A stretch of 64,000 bases of DNA from Spiroplasma sabaudiense Ar-1343 (GTDB taxonomy: Bacteria; Bacillota_I; Bacilli_A; Mycoplasmatales; Mycoplasmataceae), in contig NZ_CP006934.1 in assembly GCF_000565215.1 (NCBI RefSeq), positions 186,001 through 250,000 of the forward strand. Direction: 5' to 3'. Position numbers and translations under genes: made by a program. A model generated the notes under the pieces. It was not told the origin of the DNA and made no database searches. It saw only the letters and a list, made by a program, of their open reading frames with translations. This document shows positions 1-14,344 of this stretch, piece after piece. Every line of letters begins with the position of its first letter. The first letter of the stretch is position 1.

Positions 1-451
1 ATACATACCTCACATCAGTTTTTGTATTTTTAATTGATATTTTATCATATTTAAAAACATATTTTTTTCCGCTTACTAAATATTTTTCATTTTTAAATTT
101 ATTATTGATATCAGCTCGATTTATTTCAAGACCTACATCATAAAAACAATCAGTTTCCAGTTCCAATGTTTTTTCCATTTCTTTAATAATAGTTTCTCGC
201 ATTAGAGAATTTAGAAAATCCATTGTTGGTAACTTACTTTTTATTTCTTCATCCCTTGGCTCATCAATAAAGATAAATTCTCCCTCATAGCTGAATGTTT
301 TATTTTCGGTAAAAAATTTTTCTACATTTTCTTCGTTGAATTCTAGTTTTTCTTCTGGTCTAGGATTAATTGGACCCCCACAGGATACCACACTAATTGT
401 TGAAGTAGTTAAAAGTGACAAAGAACCGATCATACTTAGTAATTTTTTCAT
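1..451 (-). CDS. Lipoprotein, array copy 1 (most divergent; 3' end outside window)
   Basis: The 150 visible residues begin with a lipoprotein signal: basic start MKKLLS, hydrophobic core, and lipobox VVSC near residue 23, so a lipid-anchored surface protein is expected. The rest is hydrophilic and acidic, with the family block EEKLEFNEENV followed by a YEGEFIFI motif, as in the other five copies. It is clearly less similar to them than they are to each other (for example SCGGPINPR against ACQE). The gene runs off the left edge still open, so total length is unknown; its neighbours encode 301-307 residues. A purine-rich ribosome site precedes the ATG. Function is not recognised. Confidence 0.85.
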   Translation of the reverse strand, partial: MKKLLSMIGSLSLLTTSTISVVSCGGPINPRPEEKLEFNEENVEKFFTENKTFSYEGEFIFIDEPRDEEIKSKLPTMDFLNSLMRETIIKEMEKTLELETDCFYDVGLEINRADINNKFKNEKYLVSGKKYVFKYDKISIKNTKTDVRYV

Positions 452-625: not shown

Positions 626-657
626 AAAATTTTCAATCTTCTATGATTGAAAATTTT
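626..657 (-). terminator. Terminator of lipoprotein copy 2
   Basis: Thirteen-pair perfect stem (626-638 with 645-657) and six-base loop. It reads into a T-rich run on the minus strand and overlaps the stop codon of the gene ending at 656. Confidence 0.8.
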
Positions 658-1579
658 AGTGTGAATGTCCTGATTTATTGACTAACTCTTTTTTTCAAAA
701 TCCCCAATTTCCTGAAAAATTAGCTTTTTGACCATTATTAATATTGGGAAATGTTGCAACCCCGCTAATATTTGCAAAAACTAATTTTTCACTTTTATTG
801 GGTAATAATTTGACATTTTCTATTTCAACTGTAAAACGGTATTTTTCAAAAATTGGAGTTCTGACATATCCCATTCAATTACTGTTCGAAAGCTCCTCAA
901 TACCAGATTTAATTTCTTTTTTAGAATCATCTAACGAACCATTTTCCAAAGTATCTGCAACTTCATGAAAGCTAGCATCATTAGCCTTTGCTCAGTTAAA
1001 TCTCTCACTGGGCTCTGAGTTTATTCCTCCAAGTCAATAACTAAACAAATTTTCAATCTCTTTTTCTTCGACCTTGTCGCTAATTATTTCATTTGTTTGC
1101 TTAAAATTAAATTTAAACTCATTAAAAACCATTTTTTCATCGGTGGTAGTATTTTCTATTAAAACTTCATCAAAAGTAAAAACGTAATTTTTATCATATT
1201 TTGGATACTTGTCAGGGCCTAATGATTTTTTTAAACTTGGTGTTCCTAATATTGATACAACTTGAATAAAATCATTAGTATTTAAATCAATATTTTTAGA
1301 CATTTCTTTAATTATCGTTTTTACGAATAGACATTCAATTATATTGGTTGTTGAACTAAATACATCAAAATCTTCATTATCCATTTCTCAAGGATCACTT
1401 ATAAAAATAAAATCACCTTCATAAGTGAATTCCTTATTTTCTTCAAAAAAATTTGTCACATTTTCTTTGTTAAACTCGAGTTTTTCCTCGGGTTTTACTC
1501 GTTCTTGACAAGCTACAACACTAATTGTTGAACTTGTTAATAAAGATATTGAACCAACTATACTTAATATTTTTTTCAT
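656..1579 (-). CDS. Lipoprotein, array copy 2 (altered C-terminus)
   Basis: 307 residues. Signal peptide with lipobox SVVAC (Cys at about 24), then the acidic EEKLEFN block, a YEGDFIFISDP motif, a middle domain ending in NLFSYW, and a C-terminal domain with the family signature GVATFPNINNGQKANFSGNW. Most copies end with a KKRV tail (SQ, SK or NQ). This copy instead ends KKELVNKSGHSH, because a run of T near 689-694 has seven bases where copies 3, 5 and 6 have eight. The reading frame therefore shifts just before the usual stop and uses a later TAA. The middle section (about 950-1340) is almost identical to the same part of copy 5, while the ends differ, which points to gene conversion. Likely a surface-anchored protein of unknown role. 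Confidence 0.9.
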
Positions 1580-1806: not shown

Positions 1807-2715
1807 TTATTGGTTGACTCTTTTTTTTCAAAATCCTCAATTTCCTGAAAAATTAGCTTTTTGACCATTATTAATATTGGGAAATGTTGCAACCCCGCTA
1901 ATATTTGCAAAAACGAATTTAGTACTCTTGTTTGGTAATGATTTGACATCTTCTATTTCTACTGTAAATCGATATTCTTCAAAAACCGGAGTTCTAGAAT
2001 TTCCTTCTACTATTTTTCTGTTTGAAAGTTTCTCAATACCGGATTTAATTTCTTTTTTAGAATTCTCCATCGAACCATTTTCTAAAGTATCTGCAACTTC
2101 ATGGAAACTAGCATCATTACCCCTTGCTCAGTTAAATCTATCGTTAGGTTCTGTGTTTATTCCTCCAAGCCAAAAATTAAATAAATTTTTTATCTCTTCT
2201 CCCCCAACCTTATCACTAATTATTTCATTTGTTTGCCTAAAATTAAATTTAAAGTCATAAAAAACCATTCTTTCATTGGTGGCAGTATTTTCTATTAAAA
2301 CTTCATCAAAAATAAAAGTATAACTTTTATCATAGCTTGGGTACTTATCAGTGCCTAATGATTTTTTTAAATTTGGTGTTCCTAATGTTGAGTCAACTCA
2401 AATAAAATCCTTGGTTCCTAAATCAATAGTCTTAGACATTTCCCAGACTATTTTTTTTATAAATAGACATTCAATTATATCGTTAGTTGAATTAAATACA
2501 TTAAAATCTTCAGTACCCAACCCTTTTGGATCACTTATAAAAATAAAATCACCTTCGTAAGTGAATTCCTTATTTTCTTCAAAAAAATTACTCACATTTT
2601 CTTCGTTAAACTCTAGTTTTTCCTCTGGTTTTACTAGTTCTTGACAAGCCACAACACTAATTGTTGAAGCTATAAGCATAGATGTTGAACCCAGTATACT
2701 TAATATCTTTTTCAT
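1807..2715 (-). CDS. Lipoprotein, array copy 3
   Basis: 302 residues. Lipoprotein leader with SVVAC lipobox; mature protein hydrophilic, with the EEKLEFNEENV, YEGDFIFISDP and GVATFPNINNGQ blocks seen in all copies. Its middle section (about 2260-2440) closely matches copy 6, including the shared KSYTFIFDEVLIENTATNER stretch, whereas its KIVWEMSKTIDL stretch matches copy 5. The sequence is thus a patchwork of its neighbours. It carries C-terminal changes of its own (SLPNKSTKFVF in place of LLPNKSEKLVF). Ribosome site AAAGGAGAG lies a few bases before the ATG. Confidence 0.9.
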
Positions 2716-2936: not shown

Positions 2937-3842
2937 TTACTGGCTAACTCTCTTTTTTACAAATCCCCAATTGCCTGAAAAATTAGCTTTTTGACCATTA
3001 TTAATATTGGGAAATGTTGCAACCCCGCTTATATTTGCAAAAACTAATTTTTCACTTTTATTGGGCAATAATTTGACATCTTCTATTTCTACAGTAAATC
3101 TGTATTTTTCAAAAACCGGAGTTTTAATCCCTCCCATTCTATAACCATTTGAAAGTTCTTCAATACCAGATTTAATTTTATTTTTAGAATCATCTAAAAA
3201 ACCATTTTCCAAAGTTTCCGCAATTCCACTAAAACTGCAATCATTAGCTAATGTCCAGTTAAATCTATCATCAGGTTCTGAGTTTATTCCCCCAAGTCAA
3301 TAACTAAACAAATTTTTAATCTCTTCTTCTCCAACCTTATCACTAATTATTTCATTCGTTTGCCTAAAATTAAATGTAAAGTCCTTGAAAATCATTTTTT
3401 CATTAGTGGTAGTATTTTCTATTAAAACTTCATCAAAAGCAAAAACATAACTTTTATCATAGTTTGGATACTTATCGTCACCTAAAGATTTTTTTAAATT
3501 TGATGTTCACAAATTTGATTGAATCAGAATAAAATCATCTTTTTCAGGATTAATAGTTTTAGACATTTCTTTAATAACGGTTCTTATAAATAAGTATTCA
3601 ATAATTTCAGCAGTTGAGACAATTACATCAAAATCTTCATTATCTACTTCTTCTGGATCACTTATAAAAATAAAATCCCCTTCATAAGTGAACTCCTTAT
3701 TTTCTTCAAAAAAATTATTCACATTTTCTTCGTTAAACTCGAGTTTTTCCTCGGGTTTTACTCGTTCTTGACAAGCCACAACACTAATTGTTGAAGCTAT
3801 AAGCAAAGATATTGAACCGAGTATACTTAATATTTTTTTCAT
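2937..3842 (-). CDS. Lipoprotein, array copy 4
   Basis: 301 residues. Leader MKKILSILGSISLLIAS with lipobox SVVAC. It carries the most divergent middle of copies 2-6: after DNEDFDVIVSTAEIIEYLF comes INPEKDDFILIQSNLW, where the others have a TIDL and LGTP stretch. The C-terminal half has its own variants too (EELSNGYRMGGIKTP; WGFVKKRVSQ, with Val in place of the usual Trp). The terminal signature GVATFPNINNGQKANFSGNW is intact. Expected to be lipid-anchored on the cell surface; function unknown. Confidence 0.9.
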
Positions 3843-4066: not shown

Positions 4067-4975
4067 TTATTGACTAACTCTTTTTTTTCAAAATCCCCAA
4101 TTTCCTGAAAAATTAGCTTTTTGACCATTATTAATATTGGGAAATGTCGCAACCCCGCTAATATTTGCAAAAAGCAATTTTTCACTTTTATTGGGTAATA
4201 ATTTAATATCTTCTATTTCTACAGTAAATCGATATTTTTCAAAAATTGGAGTTCTAGAAGTCTTACCCATTCTATCTCCATCGGAAAGCTCCTCAATACC
4301 AGATTTAATTTCTTTTTTAGAATCACCTAACGAACCATTTTCCAAAGTATCTGCAACTTCATGAAAGCTAGCATCATTAGCCTTTGCTCAGTTAAATCTC
4401 TCACTGGGCTCTGAGTTTATTCCTCCAAGTCAATAACTAAACAAATTTTCAATCTCTTTTTCTTCGACCTTGTCGCTAATTATTTCATTTGTTTGCTTAA
4501 AATTAAATTTAAAGTCATTAAAAACCATTTTTTCATCGGTGGCAGTATTTTCTATTAAAACTTCATCAAAAGTAAAAACGTAATTCTTATCATATTTTGG
4601 ATACTTGTCATTACCTAATGATTTTTTTAAACTTGGTGTTCCTAATATTGATACAACTTGAATAAAATCATTAGTATTTAAATCAATAGTCTTGGACATT
4701 TCCCAAACTATTTTTTTTACAAATAGACTCTCAATTATATCAGTAGTAGAATTAAACACATTAAAATCTGCGTTATCTATCCCCTCTGGATCGCTTATAA
4801 AAATAAAATCCCCTTCGTAAGTGAATTCCTTATTTTCTTCAAAAAAATTTGTCACATTTTCTTCGTTAAACTCGAGTTTTTCCTCTGGTTTTTCTGGTTC
4901 TTGACAAGCCACAACACTAATTGTTGAACTTGTTAATAAAGATATTGAACCAACTATACTTAACATTTTTTTCAT
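4067..4975 (-). CDS. Lipoprotein, array copy 5
   Basis: 302 residues. Leader with lipobox SVVAC and the family blocks in order. It is a clear mosaic: the segment after the leader (EGIDNADFNVFNSTTDIIES) matches copy 6, the KIVWEMSKTIDL stretch matches copy 3, and the long stretch from NTNDFIQVVSILGTPS to the end of NLFSYW matches copy 2 nearly base for base (about 4350-4680 against 950-1280). Tail KKRVSQ. The ribosome site reads AGAGGAG in place of the AAAGGAG seen in several other copies. Confidence 0.9.
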
Positions 4976-5202: not shown

Positions 5203-6111
5203 TTATTTGCTAACTCTTTTTTTTCAAAATGCTCAATTTCCCGAAAAATTAGCTTTTTGACCATTATTAATATTGGGAAATGTTGCAACCCCGTTAATAT
5301 TTGCAAAAACCAATTTTTCACTTTTATTGGGTAACAATTTCACATCTTCTATTTCTACTGTAAATCGGTATTTTTCAAAAATTGGAGTTCCAGAATATCC
5401 TTCTATTATTTCTCTGTTTGAAAGTTTTTCTATACCAGATTTAATTTCTTTTTTAGAATCATCTAACGAACCATTTTCCAAAGTATCTGCAACTTCATGG
5501 AAACTCCCATTACCACCCTTTGCCCAGTTAAATCTATCATTAGGTTCTGAGTTTATTCCTCCAAGTCAATAATTAAATAAATTTTCAATTTCTTTTTCTT
5601 CGACCTTGTCACTAATTATTTCATTTGTTTGCCTAAAATTAAATTTAAAGTCATTAAAAACCATTCTTTCATTGGTGGCAGTATTTTCTATTAAAACTTC
5701 ATCAAAAATAAAAGTATAACTTTTATCATAGCTTGGGTACTTATCAGTGCCTAATGATTTTTTTAAATTTGGTGTTCCTAATATTGATTCAACTCAAATA
5801 AAATCCTGGGTTCCTAAATCAATAGTCTTTGACATTTCCCTAACTACTGTTTTTAAGAATAGAGATTCAATTATATCTGTAGTAGAATTAAACACATTAA
5901 AATCTGCATTATCTATTCCTTCTGGATCACTTATAAAAATAAAATCCCCTTCGTAATTGAATTCCTTATTTTCTTCAAAAAAATTACTCACGTTTTCTTT
6001 GTTAAACTCAAGTTTTTCCTCTGGTTTCACTGGTTCTTGACAAGACACAACACTAATTGTTGAACTTGTTAATAAAGATATTGAACCAAGTATACTTAAT
6101 ATTTTTTTCAT
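5203..6111 (-). CDS. Lipoprotein, array copy 6 (right border)
   Basis: 302 residues from the ATG at 6111. A GTG three codons upstream is in frame, but it falls inside the ribosome site AGAGGTG, so the ATG is preferred. Lipobox SVVSC, where copies 2-5 have SVVAC. Middle section shared with copy 3, N-terminal section with copy 5. C-terminal signature present with WAFWKKRVSK in place of WGFWKKRV. Only 88 bp separate its start from the divergent gene at 6200, so the two probably share a regulatory region. Confidence 0.9.
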
Positions 6112-6199
6112 TTTTTTCACCTCTTATAATATAGTTATTTAATATAAAATAATATTATCACTTTTATTTAATATATACTATTAATGAAAGGAAAAAAAT

Positions 6200-8965
6200 A
6201 TGAAAACAATTAATCGAGAAAAAATAAAAAATAAGAATAGTTTAAAACAAAAAATAATTACAATTAGTATGGCTTCCTTAATTTTATCAGGGAGTCTAAT
6301 GTTGATACCCCAAGGTAATCAATACTTTTATAATTTTGAAGGTCGTAGTTTTGCTAACCAGTCTCAAGTGCTAGATTATGCACAAACAAAAGGTATTAAG
6401 ACTTTGGAAAATGACACTCATTATTATTATAAATATAAAGGTAAAATCTACTCTCTAGAGGAAAAAAATCAAGTATTGCAAGACATGATAAGAGATGCCA
6501 AAATCAGCAAAGAATTTACTTATCGAAATGTTGGAAATTATGTTATATCGAATTCTGGGGAATTATCTGCTAGTGTTAAACAAACACCAAATGATAAACT
6601 TGTGGATGTTCATAAAGGTAAAAACGGTAACTCATATATTGATTTAGATGAAGCAATTGAAAGTTATTTTGATTATGACGAAGTTTTATTAACTGAAAAT
6701 TTAAATCAAGAATCAGGAGTCCCAATTGAATTTTATAACGAAAGTGAGCTAATTCAATATTTGGAAAATAATAAAAAAGCATCACTAGAACAAGGCGAAG
6801 AAAGTGATTGTTATTTGGTATCGGGAATTTGTCAAGATGAAGGAACTGTCAAAAAATGATTAAAAAGCACATCAACTTATAAATATCGTTATAAAGATTA
6901 TGAATGAAGTAATTTTGCACCAGCTGAAATTGACAAAATTGAACTTTTAGAACAAGATAAAGTTTATCAAGAAAATATTTTCCCGCATAGTGGTAACCTA
7001 AATGCTCATTGATTAACAATTGACAATGATGGTAAGGGGGCTTTTAGTGGGAGTCAATTTATTGAAACCAAGTTAGAAAGCCAAGCAGTTAATGAAAAAA
7101 TTCAACATGGCTGAACCACAAAACAAAGTGATACTATCAATATTTTTCTATCACCATTTGTGGGTTTTGGAACTTTAGTTAGTATGCAAAACAAAGTTAA
7201 TGATGGTAAAAAACCAAAAGAGGGCGAATGAACTTTCTTGGATAATATGTTTAATGGTAATGATGAAGAAATGCGTAATTTTTTTGAAATGGTAAGAGAT
7301 ACAGCATGAATTGAACTAGACGAATCTAAGAGTGAAGAACTTTACTATAAAAACATCGAGGACGACTTAACTAAAGTTGGACCAAACATGGATTCACAAA
7401 CTAAAACTTTGGTCTTTTTTAGAAGACTTGCAAATGCTAGTTTATTGAGAAATAATAGTGATAACGAAGCTGGAATGCTAAAGTTTGAAAATGAATGTAA
7501 AAAGACTATTCGAAAAATTGTAGACAACGGTAGTGAAAACATGAAAGAAATCTATGATGAACTTTTTAAAGAAAACAATCCAAGCATTTCAATTGATGAT
7601 GTTATCAATATGTTTTTAAATCCATCAGCTTTTCAATATAAAGATGATGCTGCGCAAGCAGGATTTTACAACCTAATGGTTAAAATTAATAAAACAATTG
7701 ATAGCATCATGGAACCAATGGAATCATTAAATAAAATGGTTGAAGATCATTATGATGAAAAAGGGAAACGCAAACAAGGTGATTTATCGCAAAAAGAACG
7801 CATGGAATTAATTGATGCTAATACTAAAATGATTGAAGCAACTTATTCAAAAGACCAAAAAATTATTGCAGACGATGGAAAATCTTATACTCGCGATGAG
7901 TTAATTAAAATAAACAAATCAGATGTTGGAAATGTTGATATTTCTGCTGACAGAAAAATTAATGTCTATGGGGGAATGCCCTCACCAATAAAATCAATCA
8001 CTAGTGGATTTAACACATTACAAGTGGCTTGAGAATTGGGAAATAAATTTTCACCCTTTAAAATGAAGACAATGTCACTTGATTTTGGAGCAGGTCAAGA
8101 ATTACTTTATACTTATATGGGATTTTCATTACCACTTCTTGGAGAGGTAAATAAAGTAAATCCAGGAGGATATGTTGGAAGTATTCCTTTATATAAGGGT
8201 ATTGGAAATCCAGATAAACCAGGTTATCGAGTTAAAGGAAGTTACTTTAGCGAAAAAGAAGACGCTGAATACTACATGAAATCGTTAATGATTCGTAACC
8301 CTGAGGAATATTCTGAAATTTCTAAATTTAATATTAGTATTATGGATAAAAACGAAGAAATGGTTATTGAAGATAATGGTTATGATACAACTGAAGAACA
8401 ATTGGATATTTTCATAGACAAAATTTTTCAAAAATACTATGCCAATTCTAAACAACGTTACTTCACTGATGGCTTTGGAAATAAATTTGATAATCAAATC
8501 GATGCCCTAGCAAGTATGAGAGAACGTATTAGTAAAAAACAATTTATTCGCAAGTACCAATGAAAAGATAAACACGGCATTAAACGTAATTATGACACTT
8601 TTGAAGAAATGAAAAAAATTCAAGATATTTACATTGAAAACACGTATATTGATAAAAAACGAGTTTTAGCAAGTGATTTATTTTCACAAATTGATTATGA
8701 CCGCCTTGAAGGACAAGCTGGTAGTCAAAACGAATTCTATTCATTAATGGATGGAACTAAAAAACGCTACTTTAGAACATATGATGATGCTTGTGCTTTT
8801 GTCATTAATAAAAATCAGTTTGAACTTCAAATTGAAGAAATTACAAATATTTATATCAAATATGATGATCAAACTTTTGATTCTGAGCAAAGTTTCTTAG
8901 TTTGAGTAAAAGCCAATACAACAGTAACTAACAAGAAAGGTGAGGTGCTAGATTATGCCATTTAG
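6200..8965 (+). CDS. Large exported repeat protein, first gene of a three-gene locus
   Basis: 921 residues, not recognised. A basic N-terminus and one hydrophobic segment (about residues 18-36) give a signal or anchor without a lipobox, so most of the protein should be outside the membrane. A degenerate repeat of about 20 residues, roughly Y-x-Y/F-x-x-G-x-x-F-x-(S/D)-x-x-(E/D)-A-x-x-Y, recurs near residues 43, 75, 136, 675, 750, 783, 847 and 884: three times early, then mainly in the last 250 residues. The central part (about 280-640) is mostly predicted helix and lacks the repeat. Ribosome site AAAGGA is close to the ATG. The end overlaps the next gene by 11 nt, suggesting translational coupling. 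Confidence 0.88.
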
Positions 8966-11048
8966 TATGATGAAAACATGATTATCAATTAATTTAGCCC
9001 TATCAACAAGTGCCTCATCGGCAGTCTTACTAACCGATCAACTAGTTGAAGAAGATCGTCAATATGAAGTTGAGTCAATGAAAAACTTGATTAAAACTAA
9101 ATCACAAGTAGTTTCAACCGAACAAATATTTAATTTCGATGGTCACAATTTTAATGGTCGCGAAGCGATGGATGATTATATTGTTGAAAATAGTTTAATT
9201 CAAGAATATTTAACATCTTCTAATTTAAGTAACATCATCAAAGATCATCAAAATAATATTTTAGATAAAGATAAAATTTATGGAACTGATTTTGATGATT
9301 TCCAATTAGTTTATCGCGATGCTTTTGGAAATGCTTTAACCTCAAGAAGCAAAGCTTTAAATTCTTATACAAATAAAGGATTAATTCGTCAAAAATATAG
9401 TTATGACTATCAAGGATGATATGATTCACCAACAGAGGCAAAAGATAATTTTGTTTATGCGGGAGGATTAGAAAAATCATTATACTATCAAGTTGACCAA
9501 AGATATTATAATTTGTTTAATCCCATTGACCAAGACGAACTTAGAAGTACTTTTTTAGATGGTTACAATTTTAAACCAAGTAACTTTACTAAAAAAGAAC
9601 GTTTGTATGGTGACAATCAAAAAATTGAAACTTCGGTTTATAATAACTTTCGTAGTACCTGAACTAGTGCTCAAAAAAAACCAGCGACACAAGGAATTGA
9701 TGATGACTTAAATTATCAAGATTATATTGATTATGATACTGATACCACAACAACTCTTTTTGCTCACAAAGATTTAGTGATGGCAGTTAACGGAAAAGAA
9801 CAACCCGAAAACCAGGTTCAATTTGAAAAGTTAGAAACCAAATACAACTCTCGCTTCTTTTTAGACCAAAAAAATTACACAAGAACTGTTAAAAAAGTTG
9901 CAAAAAAAACTAAAGAAAAATGACGCCAAGTAACATATACAACCTATTACTATGAAAAGGGAAATAACAAAGCAAATAAATTTGAAGTTTACTTAAATAA
10001 AAGTAAGTTAAATAAGAAAATCGATATTGATTTTGATTTTACAAAGCTCTCAGGTTCAGATACTCATAAATCTTGAATTAGACTTTATTCAAGAAAATTT
10101 GATTCTCTTACAGCGGAAGAAAGTTCTAACTACTTAATTGCGACAAATTCAAATTTAGATTATCGAATTAAAGATGCCAACGATATTTCAACTCAAGACG
10201 TTCAAAATATGTATGTTACTTGATTTCCATATTTTGTGAAAGACCAATTATTAAACTTTAACAAAATCCCTTATGGGGAATACAATCAATTTGGAGTTAA
10301 AAGAGATCAACTTTATGACATTAATGGTCGCAAAGGTTATGAATACTCTTATTCTGAGGGAATGGAATATTACCATAATACAATGAAACCAGAATTATAT
10401 AAAAACTATGTGGGAACTGATGTTCACGGAAATGCTTTGTATCGCATTAATAATAACTTTGATGCAACAGCTGAAGATTTAGAAAACTATATGTATTTAG
10501 CTGGAAAACAAGACATTCGTTTAATGTATACTTTTACTGGTGAAAAAAATTACTCATCAATTGATGGCCTGGCTTTAGCACCAACTCAAGCCGAAGCACA
10601 AGAAAAGTTATTTCAAATTGAAAGAAGTATTTTAAGTAAAAAATATTTTGCTTACGATGTTTATGGAAATTATGAAGTTTCAGGAAATAACGAAGATGAA
10701 GCAATTCGAAAACTTCAACAAAAAGTTGACCTGCAAGCAAAATACGTCCACAAAGATGAAATCAAAAGCTGAAACAATCGTCCCGTTAGTTTTGAAAATA
10801 TTATAAGTGATGGAGTTTATGTTACTTATCGCACAGTTATTCGTGATGAATTTGTTTATTTCTTAAACCATCATGATGCTTATAATGCTTTAACTGGGGA
10901 AATGAATGGTCAAACTGTTGTCACTAGTAAAACCGTTAATATTTACTTGTATACTGAAAAACAAGGAGATAGTTATGTGGAACATACTTACAGCAATGAC
11001 TATGAGTTAGATATGTTAGCAAACAAACTGTTAGGTTATGCACATTAA
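8955..11048 (+). CDS. Second exported repeat protein, overlaps both neighbours
   Basis: 697 residues, not recognised. The ATG lies inside the last codons of the previous gene, with GAGGTG upstream as ribosome site. One hydrophobic segment (about residues 8-26) acts as signal or anchor. The same loose repeat as in the preceding protein appears as NFDGHNFNGREAMDDYI (about 62), RDAFGNALTSRSKALNSY (about 118), YDYQGWYDSPTEAKDNF (about 142), and later GTDVHGNALY and YDVYGNYEVSGNNEDEAI (about 570). A lysine-rich, RTVKKVAKKTKEKW stretch lies mid-protein (about 313). Shared repeats and overlapping genes suggest that the two proteins work together, for example as a surface complex; that is inference. 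Confidence 0.87.
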
Positions 11049-12459
11049 TAAAAAAACTTATTTATATTTAATAATTCCAAGCATTTTAATTTTGCTTGGA
11101 ATTAATTTTGCTTGCTTGCTGTTATTGCAAAAACCGTTATTCATTTATATGGTTTTTCTAGCGACAATTTTATTAACAGTTTATTTATACAAATTTGGGA
11201 TGAAATATTTTGCCTATTGTGAAGATGACATTTGAAAGTTAAAACCAACAAAAGAATTTCACAAAAAGTTGGCTGAATTAATTGGGGTTATTATTTGTGG
11301 AACTTTAATGCTTAACTTTATGACGATATATTCATTTTGAGTTATAGTGACAGATATTTTACCAACTCCCCAAGCAGTAATTGTTGTTGTCATTTTAGTG
11401 TGATTGTTTGCAACAATTTTAGAATACAAACTGTCAGCAGTTTTATTTATTTTGATTTTTATCAATCCGCTACTTGTCAATACTTTTGAAAGTTCATTGC
11501 TGATAATTGCCGCAGTTATTGGGACAACACACTTAACTTTTAGCGTTAAACAATCACGAGAATTTTTCACTGACAACAACAATAAAATTTTTAATGCAAA
11601 ATTACGACTTTTAATTTTAGCGCTAATAATTGGTTGCTTATTATTTGGGTTTTTCCCCTTTGCTGACAAAGGGATTTATATTGATTACTATGACTTTTCA
11701 AAAACTTCTCAGATTTTAAATTTATTACCACTTTTAATCATTTTAATTATGGTAAGTTTTCAATTGCAGTGACAGTGAATCACTTTAGCAATAATTGTGG
11801 TCCAAGTGACATTGGGGTATAGTTTAGGTTTTGCAAAGCAAGTATCATCACAAAATTATTTAAATATTTTGTTTTTCAATGATGAAATCTTTTTTGATGC
11901 TGAAACTTTTAAACCAATAATGATGGTTTTAAAAGTTTTGCTTGATGTTATTTACCTATTAATGCTTGGGTTTCTTCTATTGGGGTTAAGTGATTTACTA
12001 AATAAAAATTTTCAAGCTTTTAGTTCAACCCCAAAACCTAAAACCAATCCCAAGTATGCTTTGGCGACTTCATCATTTTGAATTATTTTAGATCAATTAT
12101 TTTTCTTTGGAGAAGATTATAAGGAAAGTGATTACCCCTTTGAAATTAGCAATGGGGAGGTTAAAGATATTATTGTCAATGAAGGGCTTGTGAGCTTATT
12201 TAAAAGCATTAATCCCTTTGACTTTTCAAATATCTTATTGATTATTTGTTTTTCAACGACCTTAGACTACTCAACCCCATTTACGGTTTTATTGCTATTA
12301 AAGTTCAACTGAATCACTTATTTATATGTGATGCTAGTGTTCTTAGTTAGAATAACAGGTAAATGAAGTAACTTTATGTTGAGTACGAATTGACTAAATT
12401 TTTCAAATATGATACCTAAGCGTAAAGAAAAAAACTTAATTAACACTGAAAAATCATAG
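11038..12459 (+). CDS. Polytopic membrane protein, third gene of the locus
   Basis: 473 residues, not recognised. Its ATG sits in the last 11 nt of the preceding gene, the same geometry as the overlap at 8955. Hydrophobic segments lie near residues 7-31, 34-52, 83-107, 113-131, 139-160, 190-207, 222-240, 244-262, 287-312 and, more weakly, 395-445, giving about ten membrane spans, with a hydrophilic loop around 318-385. No transporter signature is visible. It could anchor, export or energise the two upstream proteins, but nothing in the sequence proves that. The ribosome site is weak (TTAGG), as expected for translation coupled through the overlap. Confidence 0.85.
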
Positions 12460-12847: not shown

Positions 12848-14344
12848 ATGAAAAATAGAAATTTTATATTTAGTGCATCAACAAATGCTTTTCAAATTGA
12901 AGGGGGTCGTAACCTTGGGGGCCGTAGTGATTCAATTTGAGATGAGTTTACAAAACGAAACTTTGTTATTCCTCCAACTGGAGTTGCTGGAAGGGAGATT
13001 AATTCAATTGATGTGGCAGCAGACTTTTACCATAAGTATAAAACCGATGCCCGCATTATGAATAAATTAGGACTTCAAGGCTTAGTTTATAATATGGATT
13101 GAACTCGTATTTTCCCAAAAAATGCGACTGAAATTAATCCTGAGGGAATTAAATGACACGATGATATGTTTAAAACCATGGTTGAAAACGGGGTTCAACC
13201 AATTCCGATTTTATATCATTGAGATACTCCAATGTGAGCGCAAATTCAAGGTGGTTTTGAAAATCCTGAAATTGTTGAATGGTTTAGAAGTTATGTTCAA
13301 GCTTGTTTCAAATACTTGGGAAAATACACAGACATTTGATTTGTAAATGATGAAAATTCAACATTTGCTTTAAGTGGTTACTTATCAGATTACATGCCCC
13401 CAGCCAGAAAAGATAAAACCGCTTTTGTTAAAGCGCTACATCATTTAAATATGACAGCCGCTGTTACCAAAGAAGAATTCTTGAAAGCTAAAAAATTGGG
13501 ATATTTATCACAAGATGCTATTTTGGGAATAGATCACGATTGAAACCCTCCAATCCCACTTCGCCAAGACAATAAAGATGATTTAAAGGCTTGTGAAGTT
13601 TATAACCAATGATTTAAAAACTTATACTTAGATCCAAATTTAAAAGGAACCTACCCACAAGTTTTCTTGGACTGAATTAAAGCCGAAAAGATTGCCTTTG
13701 AAATTAGCGACCAGGATTTAAAATTCTTAAAAGCTAATCCAATGGACTTTATTGGTTGAAATTACTATCGCCCATGTTATATTAGTGCTTATAATTTTGA
13801 TGAAAAAACCATTGAACTACAAAAACCAACTGAGGAATTTTTTGTCAAAGAGTTCAAACAGTTATATCCCAAAGCTGGGGTTAAATATACTGACTGAAAT
13901 TGAATTATTGATGCATCAAAATTGGTTTCAGGAGCTTTGGAATTGAAAAACGATTATGGTGACCTGCCATTTATGATTATTGAAAATGGAATGGGTGATT
14001 TTGATGATAAATCACAAGAACTAATTTGAGATAAAAAACGTGTTGAATTTTTACAAAGTCACATTTGTGAGGTTTTAAAAGCCAAAGAAGCGGGAGTTAA
14101 CTTTATTGGTTACTCGCTGTGAACTTATTGTGATATCTTTTCTCCAAGTGGGGGATATCGAAAAGATTATGGTTTAGTTAGTGTTGATTTTAATTCTCCC
14201 ATCAAGGAACGTCGACCAAAATTAAGTTATGCTTGATACAAGCAAGTAATTGAGTCGAAGGGAAAAGATTTAAGCATTAATGAAGCAAAACTAAAACAAG
14301 ATTTAGAAGCAATTGTTTCATCTTGAGATCTTTATTATAAATAG
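12848..14344 (+). CDS. bglA: GH1 6-phospho-beta-glucosidase, divergent
   Basis: 498 residues, the usual size for glycoside hydrolase family 1, which in this phosphorylating context would split 6-phospho-beta-glucosides imported by a PTS. Visible landmarks: SASTNAFQIEGG at the start, YHWDTP near 120, nucleophile Glu379 in IIENGMG, and the phosphate-binding pattern S-x6-K-x-Y in SPSGGYRKDYG. The acid/base Glu169 is in VNDEN, where the family normally has FNE, so the Asn before the Glu is Asp here. The usual Arg of the RFSxxW motif is replaced too (LVYNMDWTRIFP). The next gene starts 2 bp after the stop. It could be a subgroup with altered sugar preference. Confidence 0.88.

Follow-up and report, generated by a model that had tools for sequence, protein, structure and literature searches.

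What do three overlapping genes of Spiroplasma sabaudiense Ar-1343, a wall-less bacterium associated with insects, here called A, B and C, encode between them? The genes lie in a window of 64,000 nucleotides (bases 186001–250000 of the single-contig genome of 1,075,953 bp, translated with code 4), and a first-pass annotation of this window had proposed that they form an undescribed three-gene surface system, made up of two large secreted proteins with a degenerate repeat in common and a polytopic membrane protein. The reading that we favour, with a probability of roughly 0.45, is that they would belong to a modular surface complex, in which A and B form a platform, a membrane protein serves as the base and lipoproteins are the variable parts, and which most likely binds a host or macromolecular ligand. 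With code 4, all three open reading frames (ORFs) were recovered where the annotation had placed them:

6200..8965, + strand: gene A, 921 amino acids (ORF call; family profile A2)
8955..11048, + strand: gene B, 697 amino acids, a distant paralogue of A (ORF call)
11038..12459, + strand: gene C, 473 amino acids, a polytopic membrane protein (ORF call, topology prediction)
8955..8965, + strand: A/B overlap, 11 nt, ATGCCATTTAG (sequence)
11038..11048, + strand: B/C overlap, 11 nt, ATGCACATTAA (sequence)
8942..8947, + strand: Shine-Dalgarno-like GAGGTG, located inside gene A at a spacing of 7 nt from the ATG of B (sequence)

A hydrophobic helix is predicted near the N-terminus of A (amino acids ~19–37), through which the protein may stay membrane-anchored, and the N-terminal segment of B resembles a cleavable signal peptide. 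C does have the character of a polytopic membrane protein, with about 9–11 predicted transmembrane (TM) segments (the window copy has 11 hydrophobic segments, and its relatives have 8–12).

Degenerate repeat units sit at both ends of A (amino acids ~42–190 and ~676–907 of its ectodomain) and of B (amino acids ~57–204 and ~521–697). In our own reading of the sequences, the unit would roughly run from an aromatic strand through a G-containing turn and another strand into a helix. The profile of the B unit finds 0.84 units per A sequence at 5 bits or more, compared to 0.012 in shuffled sequences, and the profile of the A unit finds 0.95 units per B sequence, compared to 0.005 (an excess of about 70-fold and 190-fold, respectively). 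The repeat that the first-pass annotation had seen in both proteins is thus borne out, with a signal that is clear at the level of the families, while in the window A and B alone just a few units score. Profile–profile alignment of A with B gave E = 4.3e-9 over 132 columns, and the similarity points to A and B as an ancient related pair.

No Pfam or NCBIfam match above the cut-off that explains A, B, C or their relatives was detected by hmmscan, and within the A family NCBIfam matched only two divergent members, through models of lipoprotein signal peptides. Profile searches of the PDB with A, B, C and D (a second membrane protein, introduced below) returned nothing significant, which agrees with the first-pass remark that no motif of a known system is visible in the three proteins. 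Single-sequence AlphaFold models of two window fragments were unreliable (predicted local distance difference test scores, pLDDT, of 40 and 36). No relatives were found in the scanned genome-contig, viral-contig and plasmid collections, which may not include close relatives of the window, and no description of the cassette was found in open-access full text, a scope outside which most subscription papers fall.

To follow the three genes across genomes, B, A and C profiles were run over whole genomes, including 60 from the family of the window. In this family A is present in 25/60 genomes (family profile A2), B in 22/60 (single-protein search) and C in 14/60, with strong matches in 12. The genome of the window itself holds a second A-B-C locus (C1:404396-410604) and a divergent third locus (about C1:496443-502368), consisting of a C fragment, A and B. 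The fetched regions contain 45 B genes that are 550 amino acids or longer; immediately before 44 of them, the window copy included, sits an A gene in the same orientation, and the single exception is a decayed locus. All strong C matches (E<1e-38) have an A or B gene no more than about 0.7 kb away. The first-pass annotation had argued that repeated co-occurrence would support a system, and the gene order is indeed conserved in this way. The A-B loci come from related genomes and hence are not independent, and their kinship was addressed with a tree of B. The 13 C-linked loci form one clade (Shimodaira–Hasegawa-like approximate likelihood ratio test, SH-aLRT, 99), and the membrane-partner labels require 4 changes on the tree, compared to 19.6 when the labels are shuffled. 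At the level of genome sequence, then, the adjacency of A and B and their co-inheritance with a membrane partner and a lipoprotein family are evident. Of the original proposal, an unrecognised multi-gene surface system with conserved order and without family match stands; a closed three-gene unit does not, C being restricted to one clade.

Other loci have different membrane partners, namely a six-TM protein (D), an ATP-binding cassette (ABC) ATPase with a permease, or no identified membrane partner. D is unrelated to C and adjoins some A-B pairs in Spiroplasma clades that lack C; D matches with E<1e-100 are all at A-B loci, and the genome of the window gave no D match. Profiles built from divergent members extended the A-B search to two further mollicute families, in which the order ABC ATPase, permease, A, B is fixed (loci L090, L093, L097, L098, L099, L102, L103 and L106), followed in four loci by one or more lipoprotein genes after B (L098, L099, L103 and L106). 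The A proteins of these outgroups have 1163–1273 amino acids and the B proteins, where complete, 776–905; they match the Spiroplasma profiles with E = 3.4e-34 (A against A) and E = 2.2e-15 (B against B). The outgroup permease has about 570–617 amino acids and six TM segments, with an ectodomain loop of ~370 amino acids between TM5 and TM6, and pairwise searches place these permeases in two sets, each of clearly related members. In the window locus, A-B is not preceded by an ABC ATPase and permease, and C follows B. By homology, we claim membership of the ABC-linked operon family for the window A and B, and not for the whole operon. In locus L082, from the genus of the window, genes for an ABC ATPase and a six-TM protein precede a tandem A pair and fragments of B.

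The A/B and B/C junctions are the only short overlaps among same-strand neighbours in the window, and both are 11 nt long, as the first-pass annotation had recorded. The B start is backed by the GAGGTG motif, with ATGs just past the A stop as alternative starts. The common 4-nt ATGA overlap is impossible here because TGA encodes tryptophan, and short overlaps across the fetched loci are mainly of 1, 11 and 8 nt (20, 12 and 8 cases, respectively). Among the C-type loci, the 11-nt overlap occurs at the A/B junction in 8 loci and at the B/C junction in 6, the remaining junctions showing an overlap of 0, 1 or 8 nt, or else a short gap. The identical length was considered as a special signal and rejected, as the effect of the genetic code and common ancestry explain the 11 nt. 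Coupled translation of A, B and C is likely. A fixed stoichiometry, such as 1:1:1, which the annotation had also suggested in general terms, does not follow from the overlaps, and joint membrane placement of the three proteins is a plausible prediction.

Upstream of A, on the opposite strand, lies an array of lipoprotein genes:

6112..6199, no strand: intergenic stretch separating the divergent genes for lipoprotein 5 and A; the other array lipoproteins have its core in their upstream regions
5203..6111, − strand: array lipoprotein 5, divergent from A, about 302 amino acids from the ATG at 6111, lipobox VVSC
4067..4975, − strand: array lipoprotein 4 (ORF call, array alignment)
2937..3842, − strand: array lipoprotein 3 (ORF call, array alignment)
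1807..2715, − strand: array lipoprotein 2 (ORF call, array alignment)
656..1579, − strand: array lipoprotein 1, 76–89% identical to the other array lipoproteins
1..451, − strand: N-terminal half of a sixth array lipoprotein, whose gene runs on to G000:C1:185555, beyond the window

The array of this genome thus comprises six paralogues, of which the five complete in the window are 76–89% identical. Patches of identity common to different pairs of the complete genes suggest gene conversion among them. Since the upstream regions repeat the core of the lipoprotein 5/A intergenic region, the duplicated unit probably consisted of a lipoprotein together with its putative promoter region. Lipoproteins are a more constant neighbour of A-B than C is: in 38/45 B loci a member of any of four families is no more than 2 kb away, often in tandem arrays. 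The four families align mostly over the signal peptide and their mature parts differ by clade, so that treatment as a single family was rejected. In another mollicute family, L103 and L106 have a lipoprotein array after B, and the one L103 array lipoprotein tested matched the leucine-rich repeat (LRR) adhesin model HupY/LrrG with E = 5.5e-21, below the cut-off of that model.

Several loci show rearrangement or decay. Fragments of A lie between lipoproteins in a sister genome (L038, L039), where a transposase-like insertion also interrupts B (L038:8335-9452), and an A remnant is found past the far end of the lipoprotein array of the window (G000:C1:185323-185472). Loci L042, L053, L087, L088 and L092 likewise hold A or B copies that are decayed or fragmentary. 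Downstream of C in the window, on the same strand after a gap of ~390 bp, is a GH1 glycosidase gene (6-phospho-beta-glucosidase-like, 12848–14344), which nothing ties to the cassette.

We hypothesize that A, anchored by its N-terminal helix, and exported B would be made from one coupled mRNA and would come together on the external membrane surface by means of their related ectodomains, with C as the base. The lipoproteins would serve as interchangeable subunits for ligand binding, with the common regulatory region driving their expression in the other direction, and duplication of the lipoprotein-plus-promoter unit, with recombination between the copies, would yield a variable repertoire. The role of the assembly would be adhesion, or capture of a host or other macromolecular ligand. 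We infer the complex itself, the place of C as its base and that of the lipoproteins as variable ligand-binding parts from gene order, overlaps, promoter region and topology.

Several observations weigh against this model of a ligand-binding surface complex. Comparison of C with D by hhalign showed no homology, and C has no profile similarity to the outgroup permease either, so that the idea of C being a diverged D, or a diverged permease of that kind, was rejected; that C takes the place of the permease is suggested only by gene position and clade. The Spiroplasma D aligns weakly with the outgroup permease (76.7%, 25 columns), and many A-B loci are decayed or have no identified membrane partner. 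The lipoprotein genes, divergent from A-B-C in the genus of the window, may be neighbours and not subunits, and adhesion or binding is, for every component, a predicted function.

The strongest rival, which we nevertheless consider unlikely, is a machine for export or maturation, in which an ABC-2-like permease (or C) acts together with A and B as extracellular chaperones, and the cognate lipoproteins from the adjoining genes are its cargo instead of ligand-binding subunits. The six-TM permease of the outgroups with its large ectodomain between TM5 and TM6, one copy of which weakly matches ABC2_membrane_4 (E 0.0049, below the cut-off), would suit this, as would the ATPase encoded in the same operon as the outgroup A-B and the way in which the cognate lipoprotein families follow the A-B clade. 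However, the same genomes hold other lipoproteins away from A-B loci, no ATPase adjoins C in the window, and no D match was obtained in the genome of the window. The exporter-like layout of the permease in turn speaks against a role in nutrient or lipid acquisition, where the lipoproteins and A/B would capture a host molecule and hand it to a transporter (C or the permease). Mollicutes depend on uptake of lipids, nucleosides and sugars, and layouts of lipoproteins with ABC genes are often importers, which lends this idea some general appeal. It is nonetheless improbable, given that no matches to substrate-binding-protein families were found, that the lipoproteins are unrelated between clades, and that a cassette distributed as patchily as this one (25/60 genomes) is hard to reconcile with a core nutrient.

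About as doubtful is a loose surface-antigen neighbourhood, with A-B as a two-gene adhesin operon and C and the lipoproteins merely carried along. Two-gene surface operons are common in mollicutes (P97/P102; P60/P80, PMC1173108), C is clade-restricted, and the duplication and decay around the array mark a fast-changing region. Yet a tight B/C junction is kept (an overlap of 11, 8, 1 or 0 nt, or a 4-nt gap), strong C matches never occur away from A-B loci, and the partner types cluster on the B tree.

The A-B cassette apparently has no name and spans three mollicute families. A modular surface complex would bring many genes of minimal genomes that lack a family match into one frame, as a concrete candidate that lends itself to testing. 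Its layout, a constant pair with a changing base and changing lipoproteins, would reveal how bacteria without a cell wall assemble their surface and make it diverse, and duplicating a unit of lipoprotein plus promoter would offer them an easy way to vary that surface.

Comparison with known mollicute systems brought out both likenesses and differences. Two loci in the genus of the window (L043 and L083) have a divergent-type A-B pair directly upstream of an mreB-like gene cluster, and the '7th protein' of the mreB locus was considered as a relative and, compared by description alone, set aside; it is a single Citri-clade lipoprotein downstream of mreB3 (PMC10074174). The hitABL operon encodes the P80/P60/HinT membrane complex of M. 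hominis and others (PMC1173108). Like A-B, it is found in mollicutes and specifies a pair of exported surface proteins, of which one carries a cleavable signal peptide; unlike it, A-B has no HinT recognised among its listed neighbours, which are an ABC module or C and lipoproteins, and A and B lack NCBIfam matches, P60 and P80 having been compared by description. The P97/P102 proteins are paralogous surface proteins with N-terminal anchors, encoded in two-gene units. From this description A and B resemble them as paralogous surface proteins, and differ in their lack of a family match; P97/P102 are not known to have a membrane-protein or ABC partner. The family is named as an adhesin family of M. 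hyopneumoniae in PMC4772806. The ScARP/SARP1 adhesins of Spiroplasma citri carry short degenerate repeats (sarpin repeats) of 38–42 amino acids, and the ScARPs, encoded on plasmids, combine a signal peptide with a TM segment at the C-terminus (PMC3485318). By description, A and B are likewise Spiroplasma surface proteins with short degenerate repeats, whereas A is chromosomal, has a putative N-terminal anchor and is paired with B.

The nearest parallel in overall design is MIB-MIP, a mycoplasma system for antibody capture and cleavage with an F1-like X0 ATPase (PMC12994834). In both systems the genes of two large surface proteins are direct neighbours, often present in multiple copies, and MIB-MIP has a dedicated membrane ATPase beside its pair, a design that A-B resembles without detected homology. 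The two differ in that A and B have no match to peptidase (MIP) or immunoglobulin-binding (MIB) profiles in Pfam and NCBIfam, in that the neighbours of A-B are C, D or, in the outgroups, an ABC ATPase in place of the F1-like X0 ATPase, and in the lipoprotein arrays that accompany A-B. As a tentative extension of this analogy, which we hold to be possible and no better than that, the cassette could be an undescribed mollicute surface machine, with an A/B platform, a swappable base (C, D, or ABC ATPase and permease) and a diversifying array, that would act as a Spiroplasma counterpart of MIB-MIP in handling a host macromolecule.
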